Shown piece by piece: positions 55,014 to 60,852 of a DNA stretch of 64,000 nucleotides. The stretch lies in the NCBI GenBank assembly GCA_947589605.1, contig CANQBR010000006.1:1-64000 (forward strand), written 5' to 3'. How positions within the stretch are numbered: the first letter of the stretch is position 1; each line of letters begins with the position of its first letter. The position numbers were made by a program, and so were the translations under genes. Under the pieces are notes generated by a model. The model saw only the letters and a list, made by a program, of their open reading frames with translations. It searched no databases and had not been told where the DNA came from. The DNA is from an uncultured Phascolarctobacterium sp. GTDB lineage: Bacteria > Bacillota > Negativicutes > Acidaminococcales > Acidaminococcaceae.

Positions 55014-55421
55014 ATGAGCAAGTTAGTGGTGGCGGTGCAGTGCGACAAAGTTGTTCATCGCTGCAGCGGCTTCGCCTGCGCCCGGGCTTTTTATCAGCGC
55101 ACGGGGAAATTCGCGGGCTATGATGAAGACGCCCGCTACATGTCGATGAGCTGCGGCGGCTGCTGCGGGGCCGACTTGGCAACTAAATTGGGCCACTTGA
55201 AACGGAAGCTGGCCGCTAATCCCGACTTCGGCAGCGCCGACGACGTGGTGGTGCATCTTTCCAGCTGCATCGTCAGCGAAAATTTTCATCACGGGCCCTG
55301 TCCCTTCAAAAATTATTTATTGAAGCTGATCGAGGGCAAGGGACTCAGTGCCGTCGAAGGCACTTATGTGTCGAAGAAGGCTCAGGCCAAAAGGGAGCAA
55401 GGTATTTACAAAGAGTTTTAA
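55014..55421 (+). CDS. CGGC domain-containing protein
   Basis: A 135-residue cysteine-rich cytoplasmic protein. The central SCGGCCG and the pattern of other cysteines (C-x-GFAC near 18-22; SSC near 84; GPCPF near 94) identify the CGGC-domain family, a putative metal-binding group of unknown function. It follows dapA by 3 bases, so it is transcribed with the lysine operon, but nothing links it biochemically. A terminator follows at 55435. Confidence 0.8.
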   Translation: MSKLVVAVQCDKVVHRCSGFACARAFYQRTGKFAGYDEDARYMSMSCGGCCGADLATKLGHLKRKLAANPDFGSADDVVVHLSSCIVSENFHHGPCPFKNYLLKLIEGKGLSAVEGTYVSKKAQAKREQGIYKEF

Positions 55422-55467: not shown

Positions 55468-55508
55468 TTTTGAAAAAAGCAGAGCCGGCGAGGCAAGGGA
55501 GGATGAAG

Positions 55509-56813
55509 ATGACTGCGGCGAAAAAATTACTGAGAGTTTTGCTGGCCGCTGTTTTTTGTTTGGGGTGGGCTCTCACCTGTTTAGGCAAAGAGGCGGATCT
55601 TTTCGACAAATTTCCCCGGCCGGAGAAATGGACGGAGAACAATGCAAAAGGCGAGCAAGTGATCCTCGATGCCGGCGCCGTCGCCGCTTTCGCGCGGCAA
55701 GTGACGGAAGTTTCTCCTTCGGTGGCAGATCTTAAAGCTTATCCCGCCGCCGTAGACGGAGAAGCAGTGCGGGCCCTCGTGAGCGACTACAGCGTCCTCG
55801 CCGACGATCTCTATCGGGCCGGGCTCTTGGTCAGCGAAAATTACAAAAATATTTTGCGCAAGCTCACCAACGCCGGCAATGTGCCGGCCACGGTGAAAGT
55901 GCGCTATGCCCTGTGCGTGCGCAAGGCCAACCTGCGGGCCCTGCCCACCGGCGAAGGCCTTTTCTACGCACCGGGCGACGTAGACTTCGACGTGCTGCAG
56001 CAAACGGTGCTGGATCCCATGGAGCCGGTCATCGTCCTTCACGACAGCAGTACGTTGAATTTTTATTTCGTGCGGGCCGCCAACTATTGCGGCTGGCTCT
56101 CCCGTTTGGACCTGGCCTTCACAGACAGGAACACGTGGCTGCAATATGTCGAGCCGGAAAAATTTTTGGTGGTGACCGACCGAGAGCTTTTTTTGAAGAC
56201 GGGGGCAGAGCAAGTGCGCTATCAGCAGGGAGCCAAGCTCCCCGTCAAAGAAGAAACGAACGGCGTTTATAAGCTGAACGCTCCCGTCAGAGGGAAGAAC
56301 GGCCAGATCGCCTGGGAGCCGGTGCAGATCTTGAAGAGCAATCCCAAAGTCCATTTGGGTTATCTGCCCTACACGACCAACAACATCATCCGCGCCGCCT
56401 ATAAGTGGTACGGCGCTCCTTACGGTTGGGGAGGGATGAAGAACAGCGTCGACTGCTCCAGTCTCATCTACAATGTTTACAGAACGGTGGGGATAAGATT
56501 GCCCCGAGATGCGGACCAGCAGGAGACCACCGCCGGCAGACACTACGAACTGGCGGCAGCGGCCGGCGAAGCGGCCCGTTTGGCCATCATCAATCGGCTG
56601 CAGCCGGGGAGTCCTCTCTTCATGAACGGCCACGCCGTCCTCTATTTGGGCTCTGTGGACGGCATCCCCTATTGCATCCACTCTTTGGGCTCTTGCTACG
56701 AAGGAGGCAAGCGGCTGCGGGTGATGCAGGTGGTAGTGAGCGATCTTTCTCTGGAGCGGGCCAACGGGTCCAGCTTCCTCAATGCATTGACCGGTGCGGT
56801 AGAATATAAGTGA
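55509..56813 (+). CDS. SH3 and NlpC/P60 domain cell-wall hydrolase
   Basis: A 434-residue exported protein. The signal peptide (LLRVLLAAVFCLGWALT) is followed by N-terminal and two SH3b-type domains (about 120-290) and a C40 NlpC/P60 peptidase domain: catalytic Cys in SVDCSSLIYNVYRTVGIRLPRDADQQ and His in NGHAVLYLG. Relatives cleave gamma-D-Glu-diamino acid bonds in peptidoglycan. GGGAGG six bases before ATG 55509 favours that start. It begins a unit with pepA. Confidence 0.9.
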   Translation: MTAAKKLLRVLLAAVFCLGWALTCLGKEADLFDKFPRPEKWTENNAKGEQVILDAGAVAAFARQVTEVSPSVADLKAYPAAVDGEAVRALVSDYSVLADDLYRAGLLVSENYKNILRKLTNAGNVPATVKVRYALCVRKANLRALPTGEGLFYAPGDVDFDVLQQTVLDPMEPVIVLHDSSTLNFYFVRAANYCGWLSRLDLAFTDRNTWLQYVEPEKFLVVTDRELFLKTGAEQVRYQQGAKLPVKEETNGVYKLNAPVRGKNGQIAWEPVQILKSNPKVHLGYLPYTTNNIIRAAYKWYGAPYGWGGMKNSVDCSSLIYNVYRTVGIRLPRDADQQETTAGRHYELAAAAGEAARLAIINRLQPGSPLFMNGHAVLYLGSVDGIPYCIHSLGSCYEGGKRLRVMQVVVSDLSLERANGSSFLNALTGAVEYK

Positions 56814-56823
56814 GGTCAGGGAT

Positions 56824-58332
56824 ATGCTGAATAATTTGAATTTGAGCAACACGGAAAAAGAACGGGCCGCCTACGGCGAGGCCCGGGCTCTCGTTCTGCT
56901 TTTGTGCAAAGAATGCGAAGCGGCTCTCTCTAAGTTGGAACTGTCGGATGAAGTGCTGCAGGCAGTATCCGCATTATTGGCCGAAAGCGATGAGCCTTTC
57001 GAGATTGGCAAAGTGAGCGCCTGCAGCCTCCTTTGCGGATCGAAACTGCGGCACATCATCATCGCAGGCTGCGGCTCGGGAAGAGAATGCAAGCCCACAG
57101 CTTTTAAGCAGGCGGCAGGAGAGGCGGCTCGGGCTCTGGCAGCCAAAAAGTGCGAGAGAGCGGTGCTGGCTGCGCCCATCCTGCTCAATCCCAAACGCAC
57201 GCCCTATCTGGAAGCCATAGCCGAGGGGCTGTACCTGGGAGCTTACAGCTTCACTCTTTATAAGAGCAAGGCAGAAGCTCCCGTCACCTGTGATGTAAAG
57301 ATAGTATCTGCCTGCACGGCGGCGGACCTTGCTTTAAAGCGGGCCCTTGTCAAAGGGCAGGCCGTGAGCATGGTGCGCGACTTGGTGAACGAGCCGGGCA
57401 ACAAGCTGGGGCCGGAAGAATTGGCGGACTTCGCCAAACAAGTGGCCGCAGAAAACGGCTTGAGCTGTGAGGTCTTAGATCGCGAAGCTTTGAAAGATCT
57501 GGGCTGCGGCGCCCTCTTGGCCGTGGGTCAGGGCAGCGTTCGGGAGCCTCGCCTCATCGCTTTGCGCTATAGGGGAGCGGGAGACGCTCCCTATACTGCC
57601 TTCGTTGGCAAAGGCATCACCTTCGACAGCGGCGGTCTTTCTTTGAAACCTGCCGCCAACATGGGCGAGATGAAGGACGATATGTCCGGCGCGGCGGCAG
57701 TGCTGGGAGCCGTGAAGGCAGCGGCCGAACTGCAGGTGCCTATCAACCTGCTGGCCGTCCTCTCCTGTGCCGAGAACATGCCGGGAGGAGGGGCCCAGCG
57801 GCCGGGAGACATCGTCACCGCCGCCGACGGTCAAACGATAGAAGTGGTGAACACCGACGCCGAAGGCAGACTGGTGCTGGCCGATGCTGTTTGGTATGCA
57901 GCCAAACAGGGGGCGGCCCGCATCGTGGACATCGCCACCCTGACGGGAGCGGTCATCACCGCTTTAGGCAAAGAGACCGGCGGCATCATCGCTTGCGACG
58001 ACGGCTTGGCGGCCGCGATCAAAGAAGCGGGCCGTTTGGCCGGGGAGTTGTGGTGGCAGCTGCCTACGCCCCCCGATCTTCGCAAGGCCATCAAAGGGGA
58101 AGAGGCCGATCTTCTCAATTCCACCGGCAGCACCGTGGGAGGAGGCTGCATCACCGGCGGTCTCTTCATCGGCAGTTTCGTGCCCAAAGAGCTGCCGTGG
58201 GCCCATTTGGATATCGGAGGCACCGCCAGCCGGGCGAAAGCGGCCGGTTTCGTGAGCAAGGGAGGAACAGGCTTCGGCACCCTCACCCTCATCAAATTGA
58301 CGGAAACTTTGGCGGCCGAGGGACAGCGGTAA
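56824..58332 (+). CDS. pepA: Leucyl aminopeptidase family protein (M17, PepA-like)
   Basis: A 502-residue M17 metallopeptidase that removes N-terminal residues. The family motif NTDAEGRLVLADAVWY is intact, with metal ligands also in GKGITFDSGGLSLKP and KDDMSGAAAVLG. The N-terminal domain is more divergent. It lies 10 bases after the NlpC/P60 gene, so the two are co-transcribed, perhaps for muropeptide turnover (inference). Confidence 0.93.
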   Translation: MLNNLNLSNTEKERAAYGEARALVLLLCKECEAALSKLELSDEVLQAVSALLAESDEPFEIGKVSACSLLCGSKLRHIIIAGCGSGRECKPTAFKQAAGEAARALAAKKCERAVLAAPILLNPKRTPYLEAIAEGLYLGAYSFTLYKSKAEAPVTCDVKIVSACTAADLALKRALVKGQAVSMVRDLVNEPGNKLGPEELADFAKQVAAENGLSCEVLDREALKDLGCGALLAVGQGSVREPRLIALRYRGAGDAPYTAFVGKGITFDSGGLSLKPAANMGEMKDDMSGAAAVLGAVKAAAELQVPINLLAVLSCAENMPGGGAQRPGDIVTAADGQTIEVVNTDAEGRLVLADAVWYAAKQGAARIVDIATLTGAVITALGKETGGIIACDDGLAAAIKEAGRLAGELWWQLPTPPDLRKAIKGEEADLLNSTGSTVGGGCITGGLFIGSFVPKELPWAHLDIGGTASRAKAAGFVSKGGTGFGTLTLIKLTETLAAEGQR

Positions 58333-58350: not shown

Positions 58351-59187
58351 ATGGAAGTAGTGGCCTTCATAGGACCCAGCGGGACGGGGAAGTCGCACAG
58401 AGCGGTGAATGTGGCCTATGCCCACGGCTGCGATGCCATCATCGACGACGGTCTGTTGATCAGGGGCACCCACATTTTGGCCGGGGTCTCCGCCAAAAAC
58501 GAAAACAATAAGATACAGGCGGTGAAGCGGGCCATCTTCACCGATCCGGAGCACACCCGCAACGTGCAGCTGGCCCTAGCCAAAAGCGACATCAAAAGAT
58601 TGCTGGTCATCGCCACCTCCGACAACATGCTGGGGCGCATCTTGGAGCGGCTGGGCCTGCCCGAGCCCTGCGAGCGGGTCTATATCAACCAAGTGGTGAG
58701 CAAGGCCGAGATCAAAAAGGCCCGCTACGAGCGGCTCCATTACGGCAAGCACGTGGTGCCGGTGCCCAACGTGGAGTTGAAGCCCCACCTCACCGGTTAT
58801 TTTGCCGATCTTCCCTACAATCTTTTCGCCGGCGACGGCGGACCGAAAGAAGGGGACAGGAGCATCGTCCGCCCGCCTTTCAGTTTTTTCGGTAAATTGT
58901 TGGTGGCCGACAGGGCGGTGGAAGACATCATCCGCATCATCGCCGACAAAGACGCCAATGTGCTGCGCCTGAAGAGCATCAGCGTGCGCCGGCGCAGCGG
59001 GTACGGCAGAGGCATCGTCATCGGCATCGATCTGGCGCTGGTTTACGGGGCGAAGATCTTCGCCGTCACCCGCGCTCTGCAGGAAAAGATCAAGCAGAGA
59101 GTGGAATATATGACCGCCATGAACGTGAACAATGTGAACATAACCGTCCGTGGCTTGGGCAAGCGGCCTCAGGCGGCGGGCAAATAA
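58351..59187 (+). CDS. P-loop ATPase fused to an Asp23/Gls24-like domain
   Basis: A 278-residue two-part protein. The N-terminal part has a Walker A (FIGPSGTGKSHRA) and looks like an adenylate-kinase-type nucleotide-binding fold. The last 90 residues (VADRAVEDIIRIIADKDANVLRLKSISVRRR, then GIVIGIDLALVYGAKI and EYMTAMNVNNVNITVRGL) resemble the Asp23/Gls24 (DUF322) envelope-stress domain. It probably belongs to a conserved family of anaerobic Firmicutes but no function is known. It follows pepA by 18 bases. Confidence 0.65.
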   Translation: MEVVAFIGPSGTGKSHRAVNVAYAHGCDAIIDDGLLIRGTHILAGVSAKNENNKIQAVKRAIFTDPEHTRNVQLALAKSDIKRLLVIATSDNMLGRILERLGLPEPCERVYINQVVSKAEIKKARYERLHYGKHVVPVPNVELKPHLTGYFADLPYNLFAGDGGPKEGDRSIVRPPFSFFGKLLVADRAVEDIIRIIADKDANVLRLKSISVRRRSGYGRGIVIGIDLALVYGAKIFAVTRALQEKIKQRVEYMTAMNVNNVNITVRGLGKRPQAAGK

Positions 59188-59210
59188 GAAAAAAGCAAAG
59201 GAGAGAGAAC

Positions 59211-59576
59211 ATGGTCTCGGATGCCTATCAAGTTCAGATCGCCCGCACTCTTTACAACAATGTCTATCGCTGCCGTCTGCTGGACAGCGTCGGCAACGTG
59301 AAAGGTTTTTTGCGGGTGCTGCCTTCCCTGCCTTTAGACAGGTCGCAGGTGCCCCAGGACGCCCCCAAGGCCGTGCCCTTCCTCTACGTGATCGTGGAGG
59401 ACGCGGACATCAACAAAGATAATCTCATCGACTTCGAAGAGCGGACCGCCTATGCTTTGATGCTGCGCTTCGCCACGGAGACCGTGAACTTCGATCACTG
59501 CGAATTCTATTATCCGTCGCCGGCCTTCGTCTTCGACGACAAGAGGGCCGACGAGAACAATCCCTATTTGATGTAG
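59211..59576 (+). CDS. Hypothetical protein with one EF-hand-like loop
   Basis: A 121-residue protein with no recognised family. The segment DINKDNLIDFEE fits a canonical 12-residue EF-hand calcium loop (acidic or amide residues at 1, 3, 5 and 9, Ile at 8, Glu at 12). AAGGAG seven bases before ATG 59211 and the tight position after the P-loop/Gls24 gene support it as real. No signal peptide or membrane helix, so cytoplasmic. Calcium binding is a guess from the motif. Confidence 0.6.
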   Translation: MVSDAYQVQIARTLYNNVYRCRLLDSVGNVKGFLRVLPSLPLDRSQVPQDAPKAVPFLYVIVEDADINKDNLIDFEERTAYALMLRFATETVNFDHCEFYYPSPAFVFDDKRADENNPYLM

Positions 59577-59877
59577 AGAACGAAGGTCTCGGCCCTTAAC
59601 TCTTTGGATTTTTTCTTCGCCTTTTTATGAAGGCTGCAAAAGCCGCGGCTATTTGCGAAAAAGCAAAGACAGCCGCAGAAAAAGCCGCCGGCGAAGAGGG
59701 GAGAGAGAGAAGAGGACGAGGGCAAAAAATTATCCTTATTTCGCAAGAAATACACAAAAATTTGCAGGATTTTTACAATTTATCTAGAAGAAAAAACGAT
59801 ATAGTAAGTCACAGGGCGCGGCGTTGTCCGAATGCCGGCCGTGAACTTAGCTAAAGAAATTGAGGAGGGGAAAGTTT
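59577..59877. other. Gap before the TRAP operon
   Basis: No convincing gene. A low-complexity hairpin-prone stretch lies near 59640-59690 and TATAGT at 59800-59805 could be a -10 for the TRAP operon, without a good -35. A short open frame at 59627-59854 is Ala/Lys/Arg-rich and has no ribosome-binding site. Confidence 0.5.
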
Positions 59878-60852
59878 ATGAACAAACTCTTAGTTTCCGC
59901 ATTGGGCTTGGCTGTGGCAGCCTCTGTAGTCGCAGGCTGCGGTGGCGGCGACAAAAAAGCTGAAGAGAAGAAACCTGCTGCTCAAAAATTCTTGAACATC
60001 GCTACCGGCGGCACTGCCGGCGCTTATTATCCCATCGGCGGCGCCGTTGCCGATATCTTGAACAAAAATATCCCCGGCGCCAACGCCTCTGCTCAGTCCA
60101 CCGGCGCTGCCGTGGCCAACGTCAACTTGCTGAAAGAGGGCAAGGTAGAGATCGCTTTCCTGCAAAACGATATCGCCTACTATGCAGTTAACGGCACCGA
60201 GATGTTCAAAGACAAGAAAGTTCCCAACATCTACGGCTTGGCTACTCTCTATCCCGAGACCGTGCAGATCGTTACTTTGAAGAAGACCGGCATCAAATCC
60301 ATCGCCGACTTCAAAGGCAAGAAGATCGCAGTAGGCGCTGCCGGCTCCGGCACCGAGTGCAATGCTCGTCAGATCATGGCTGCTTACGGCCTGAAATATG
60401 ACGACATGAAAGTTCAGTATCTGTCCTTCGCAGAGGCAGCCAGCGCATTGAGAGACGGCAACGTCGACGCCGCTTTCGTTACCGCCGGCTTCCCGACCGC
60501 TGCCATTCAGGATATCGCCACTCAGAACGAAGTTTATCTGATCCCGGTGGATGCCGACAAGGCCGACGCCGTTATGAAACAATATCCGTTCTACACCAAA
60601 GTTGTCATCAAGAAAGGCACCTATGCCAAACAGGAAGCCGACTGCGACGCTTTGGCTATCCGCTGCATGCTGGGCGTTACCGACAAGATGGACGAGCAGA
60701 CCGCCTATGACGTTACCAAGGCCCTCTTCACTCATCTGGATCGGCTGAAACAGTCCCATTCCGCCGCTGCCGTTGTCAGCAAAGAGAGCGCTATGGACGG
60801 CATGTCCGTTAAAGTTCATGCCGGCGCCGACAAGTTCTTCAAGGAAAAATAA
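59878..60852 (+). CDS. TAXI family TRAP transporter solute-binding lipoprotein
   Basis: A 324-residue extracytoplasmic receptor. The lipobox VVAGC marks a lipoprotein. The mature part has the TAXI pattern NIATGGTAGAYYPIGGAVADIL, with GKKIAVGAAGSGTECNARQI and FVTAGFPTAAI. TAXI-TRAP transporters take up dicarboxylates, glutamate or related acids using an ion gradient. GAGGAGGGG precedes ATG 59878. Followed by a DUF1850 protein and the fused permease, the standard TAXI operon. Confidence 0.93.
   Translation: MNKLLVSALGLAVAASVVAGCGGGDKKAEEKKPAAQKFLNIATGGTAGAYYPIGGAVADILNKNIPGANASAQSTGAAVANVNLLKEGKVEIAFLQNDIAYYAVNGTEMFKDKKVPNIYGLATLYPETVQIVTLKKTGIKSIADFKGKKIAVGAAGSGTECNARQIMAAYGLKYDDMKVQYLSFAEAASALRDGNVDAAFVTAGFPTAAIQDIATQNEVYLIPVDADKADAVMKQYPFYTKVVIKKGTYAKQEADCDALAIRCMLGVTDKMDEQTAYDVTKALFTHLDRLKQSHSAAAVVSKESAMDGMSVKVHAGADKFFKEK

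Follow-up and report, generated by a model that had tools for sequence, protein, structure and literature searches.

The reading frame at positions 58351-59187 of the analysed window, a stretch of 64,000 nucleotides, encodes a genuine fusion of an N-terminal P-loop domain with a C-terminal Asp23/Gls24 domain. Phascolarctobacterium genomes are its closest public relatives, and the window is accordingly assigned to a gut bacterium of the Acidaminococcaceae. The fusion is real, widespread and apparently unstudied, and no description of a P-loop/Asp23 architecture was found in the open-access literature. The gene of a 121-aa protein follows at a distance of 23 bp on the same strand, and both genes lie where the preliminary description had placed them (Table 1).

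Table 1. Coordinates of the features discussed, in positions of the window
Feature	Position	Strand	Details and evidence
SH3/NlpC-P60 cell-wall hydrolase	55470..56813	+	Pfam PF12913, PF00877
M17 leucyl aminopeptidase	56824..58332	+	Pfam PF00883, 3.1e-112
P-loop/Asp23 fusion gene	58351..59187	+	278 aa; ORF, Pfam PF03780, 52-member alignment, AF2 model
N-terminal P-loop NTPase domain	58351..58743	+	residues 1-131; motifs invariant in 52 homologues
Linker	58744..58899	+	residues 132-183; invariant H134, P137
C-terminal Asp23/Gls24 domain	58900..59184	+	residues 184-278; Pfam PF03780, AF2 secondary structure
121-aa Negativicutes orphan family protein, strand-rich single domain, EF-like loop	59211..59576	+	
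EF-like loop DINKDNLIDFEE (D66-INKDNLIDFE-E77)	59406..59441	+	residues 66-77
TAXI-type TRAP solute-binding lipoprotein	59860..60852	+	neighbourhood table; presumed product name

Architecture and distribution of the fusion

The Pfam Asp23 profile (PF03780) matched residues 210-268 of the fusion protein with 1.6e-9 and 38.6 bits against a curated cut-off of 28, residues 8-15 form the Walker A motif G8PSGTGKS15 (GPSGTGKS), and the architecture was kept in 51 of 52 homologues, as judged by a Pfam Asp23 match at E <= 0.01; the P-loop/Gls24 fusion suggested in the preliminary description was thereby borne out. Other motifs of the P-loop domain are D32-D33-G34, K49, T89-S90 and R128. Residues G8, G11, G13, K14, S15, D32, D33, G34, K49, A57, A61, F63, T89, S90, M93, L101, A124, R128, H134, P137 and G181 were invariant in the alignment of 52 sequences.

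The AlphaFold2 (AF2) model comprised two confident domains (mean pLDDT 79.7, pTM 0.50), with pLDDT block means mostly of 80-97 in the P-loop domain, values below 50 in linker residues 137-183 and a helix-strand-strand-helix-strand order in the C-terminal domain. No transmembrane segments were evident by eye in the protein. In fold searches, the C-terminal domain was best matched by cytoplasmic C-terminal domains of cation-efflux proteins, and the whole chain by the GTPase Era (Foldseek E 6.8e-5, with a TM-score of only 0.25); we read these matches as reflecting shared small alpha-beta folds and not kinship.

A profile search of 151 Negativicutes genomes recovered a single copy of the fusion in 146, and in 123 of the 124 good assemblies among them. 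Furthermore, full-length matches were obtained in more than one-third of 300 sampled Bacillota genomes by single-sequence search; the Bacillota tally of 208 also counts ordinary Asp23 proteins, in which the match is limited to the last 50-80 residues.

Wall hydrolase and aminopeptidase genes precede the fusion gene, and Pfam matches upheld both of these earlier assignments; a TAXI-type TRAP operon lies downstream of the 121-aa gene. Neighbours of the fusion gene differ by lineage. By product names compared by eye, a PHP-type phosphoesterase accompanies it in several Negativicutes, and DnaD/DnaC-like genes adjoin it at no more than 12 of 46 loci, for the most part on the other strand. No constant operon partner was seen in the neighbourhoods surveyed (46 loci), and since neighbours vary between lineages, we consider the fusion a stand-alone gene.

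It should be added that a CGGC-domain protein (PF08821, 5.3e-22), predicted to bind metal from its family name, is encoded at 55014-55421 between dapA and the wall hydrolase gene. Long open frames hinted at larger fusions, but these were rejected: the five frames re-read were ordinary proteins with non-coding-looking end extensions, in which no added domains were recognised by eye. A search of a viral fold library returned no informative match.

Possible roles of the fusion protein

The P-loop domain matched no curated family at its cut-off, and P-loop profiles matched it below their cut-offs only. Profile comparison with hhalign gave a probability of 88% for MiaA over 100 columns, 43% for PEPCK and 36% for HprK, versus 2% for the CobU control; these alignments fell mainly in the Walker A half of the P-loop domain and did not discriminate between the candidates. 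Motif order as seen by eye suggested membership in the PEPCK/HprK group, but hhalign did not set these families apart from MiaA. Because neither PEPCK nor HprK was singled out, the label is kept to a putative P-loop NTPase, perhaps kinase-like.

The same data bear on a somewhat unlikely alternative, in which the P-loop domain would be a kinase- or transferase-type enzyme with a MiaA-, PEPCK- or HprK-like active-site layout and a small molecule or a protein as its substrate, and the Asp23 domain would only localise or oligomerise it. The GxSGTGKS motif, the strand ending in DDG and the invariant Lys resemble the layout of these three families, the hhalign probabilities exceed that of the control, and the invariant T89-S90, R128 and H134 may suggest catalysis beyond mere ATP binding; against this, the hhalign matches are concentrated in the Walker A half and tell no candidate from another, and none of the substrate-binding domains of the MiaA, PEPCK and HprK families was seen.

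A cytoplasmic, nucleotide-controlled Asp23-family protein, which switches the association or the effect of Asp23/AmaP, is the role that we consider quite possible, if a little short of probable. In Staphylococcus aureus, Asp23 forms filaments and is anchored at the membrane by AmaP, and the loss of either protein induces the cell-wall stress response (PMC6954212); in Bacillus subtilis, the family member YqhY restrains acetyl-CoA carboxylase (PMC5437119). Two Asp23-type genes besides the fusion were found in the same genome, where another contig, C16, carries an ordinary asp23 gene followed by amaP and then nusB, with AmaP scoring 85.4 bits to NF033218 (cut-off 55). Canonical asp23, amaP and nusB are thus located together on this contig (L002:1268-1792 and L002:2058-2465; genome G000).

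In the mechanism proposed, ATP or another NTP would be bound and turned over by the P-loop domain, while the Asp23 domain would join the membrane-attached Asp23/AmaP assembly, likewise encoded in this genome; the nucleotide state would then switch either the association of the fusion or the effect of the assembly on envelope or lipid homeostasis. We infer, as the most economical mechanism, that the fusion would enter the Asp23/AmaP assembly and alter it according to its nucleotide state. Resemblance to the Asp23 fold alone is not proof of contact between the fusion and Asp23 or AmaP, and in the loci surveyed the fusion gene showed no constant operon partner that would tie it to the envelope. 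A broader role, that of a core and near-universal NTP-dependent regulator of the Asp23/AmaP assembly or of the control of acetyl-CoA carboxylase by Asp23 proteins, across Negativicutes and many other Bacillota, appears to us rather doubtful.

The 121-aa protein and its EF-like loop

Homologues of the 121-aa protein were detected in 61 of 151 Negativicutes genomes and in only two of the 250 Bacillota genomes sampled, both from Negativicutes, and no Pfam family covers it; judged by its sequence, it is a member of an orphan family restricted to Negativicutes. In one genome, a single frame of 248 aa (G457:C72:755-1420) consists of two tandem copies of this family. The gene was absent from all nine sampled genomes of genus g220 of the same family (G341, G363, G372, G376, G388, G400, G408, G440 and G441), and the fusion gene was present in all seven of these that were searched (all but G440 and G441).

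As to the “textbook” EF-hand loop of the preliminary description, its spacing stood and its completeness did not. The 12-residue loop DINKDNLIDFEE, with ligands at positions 1, 3, 5, 9 and 12, is the sole such motif among 49 ORFs of the window, with 0.0 expected from shuffles. The PROSITE EF-hand pattern wants a hydrophobic residue at position 13; the residue following position 12 is Arg, and the window contained no match to a full PROSITE-type pattern, a match being obtained only with position 13 left out. The Pfam EF-hand profile scored 11.7 bits (E = 0.2) on this protein, below the cut-off of 25.4, and its best E across 42 family members was 0.053. The AF2 model (mean pLDDT 89), derived from an alignment composed mostly of relatives lacking the motif and by a method that models no metal, predicted a strand at residues 57-65, a loop and a helix at 72-87. 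As the loop is predicted to lie in a strand-loop-helix and not in a helix-loop-helix, the protein is not an EF-hand protein, contrary to what had been proposed; fold, profile and family-wide conservation together rule out this assignment. For a GNAT relationship there were weak fold matches and no sequence support: the top Foldseek matches were mostly GNATs, the best with an E of only 0.12, and hhalign against GNATs was negative.

Calcium-binding EF-like loops are known in strand-loop-helix settings, hence clade-specific metal binding by the 121-aa protein is possible. Specifically, a Dx[DN]xDG-like loop that one Negativicutes clade has gained or retained may serve the protein as a calcium-binding site, a proposal that we hold tentatively and with some leaning to doubt. 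In 30 of the 31 sequences of the Acidaminococcales group, positions 1, 3, 5, 9 and 12 are occupied by oxygen donors, and the loop has an entropy of 0.40 bits versus 0.91 for the whole protein. Outside it, few stretches vary more than this one: among the 27 most distant homologues, it ranked 76th of 89 windows in conservation, and the set D/N, D/N/S, D/N/S, E/D was kept in none (0/27). Moreover, loop carriers fall on one side of a single branch of the family tree (support 97/99), and loops of the Dx[DN]xDG type bind calcium in contexts other than EF-hands, strand-loop-helix included (PMC3123361). Such sites are, however, less common in cytoplasmic proteins (PMC3123361), as the 121-aa protein appears to be; the predicted helix begins as early as loop position 7, ahead of where it starts in EF-hands, position 6 is Asn and not Gly, and the Asp at position 1 is replaced by Asn in eight of the 31 sequences.

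The preliminary description had further suggested that the two adjacent genes possibly form a unit for envelope stress that senses ATP and calcium, which we consider highly improbable. The single strand and the 23-bp gap, in which no terminator-like site was found on the + strand, speak for such a unit, and given this strand and spacing, co-transcription is plausible in this genus. Among the 60 Negativicutes genomes in which both genes could be placed, however, 47 have them on different contigs (21) or at least 5 kb apart (26); they lie within 5 kb in 13, convergently in 11 and on the same strand in two, both of this genus. The phyletic distributions also differ (146 versus 61 of 151 Negativicutes), with the fusion gene being present in most genomes without the 121-aa gene, and an EF-hand fold is not predicted for the latter's product. 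With the genes convergent, kilobases apart or on other contigs in relatives, a module sensing ATP and calcium is unsupported.

The 121-aa gene of most relatives is divergent from a TAXI-TRAP operon or, in Veillonellaceae-like genomes, from cobU (names by eye). At L105:8156-8509, L106:7964-8317 and L107:7452-7805 it runs toward the fusion gene and away from the TAXI-TRAP operon, in convergent and divergent order, respectively. An intervening gene of ~119 aa, DUF3870-like by eye, is found between the two genes in some relatives, for instance at L105, bases 7728 to about 8087. The same-strand order in this genus looks like a recent flip of the 121-aa gene. The best reading is that the 121-aa protein is not part of the fusion's machine and that its usual partner is the divergent TAXI-TRAP operon.

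Significance and comparison with known systems

Asp23-family proteins are abundant and widespread, and a conserved single-copy version with a P-loop domain in almost every Negativicutes genome offers a direct biochemical handle, through nucleotide binding and turnover. Should the regulator reading be true, it would provide a nucleotide switch for the Asp23 family, whose molecular function is unknown. The 121-aa gene is a caution that a textbook EF-hand string can appear within a single clade of a non-EF-hand family.

With EF-hand proteins, the 121-aa protein shares the 12-residue loop and the right ligand spacing; these proteins are, however, built of helix-loop-helix units, whereas it has a single loop, no profile match and a wider family devoid of the loop. 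It comes closer to the Dx[DN]xDG calcium loops in its near-consensus motif and strand-loop-helix context (PMC3123361), with Asn at position 6 of the putative site where those loops have Gly.

On the side of the fusion, MiaA, PEPCK and HprK have in common with it a Walker A motif that precedes an acidic motif placed behind strand 2, and MiaA and PEPCK also a nearby Lys, whereas the second halves are not alignable. Era, with its G and KH domains, resembles the plan of the fusion (P-loop domain, linker and small alpha-beta domain); its C-terminal domain is KH, whereas that of the fusion is Asp23 by sequence. AmaP is a membrane anchor encoded elsewhere in the genome, while the fusion appears by eye to be free of transmembrane segments, and the AmaP profile NF033218 matched its Asp23 part weakly (23.4 bits, cut-off 55). 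Unlike canonical asp23, which has a separate locus in the same genome, the fusion gene stands alone and not beside amaP or nusB. Asp23, YqhY and YloU are not known to carry the N-terminal P-loop domain and linker of the fusion; its C-terminal domain, which passes the Pfam cut-off and follows the helix-strand-strand-helix-strand layout, is what it shares with the Asp23/Gls24 family represented by S. aureus Asp23 and B. subtilis YqhY and YloU.
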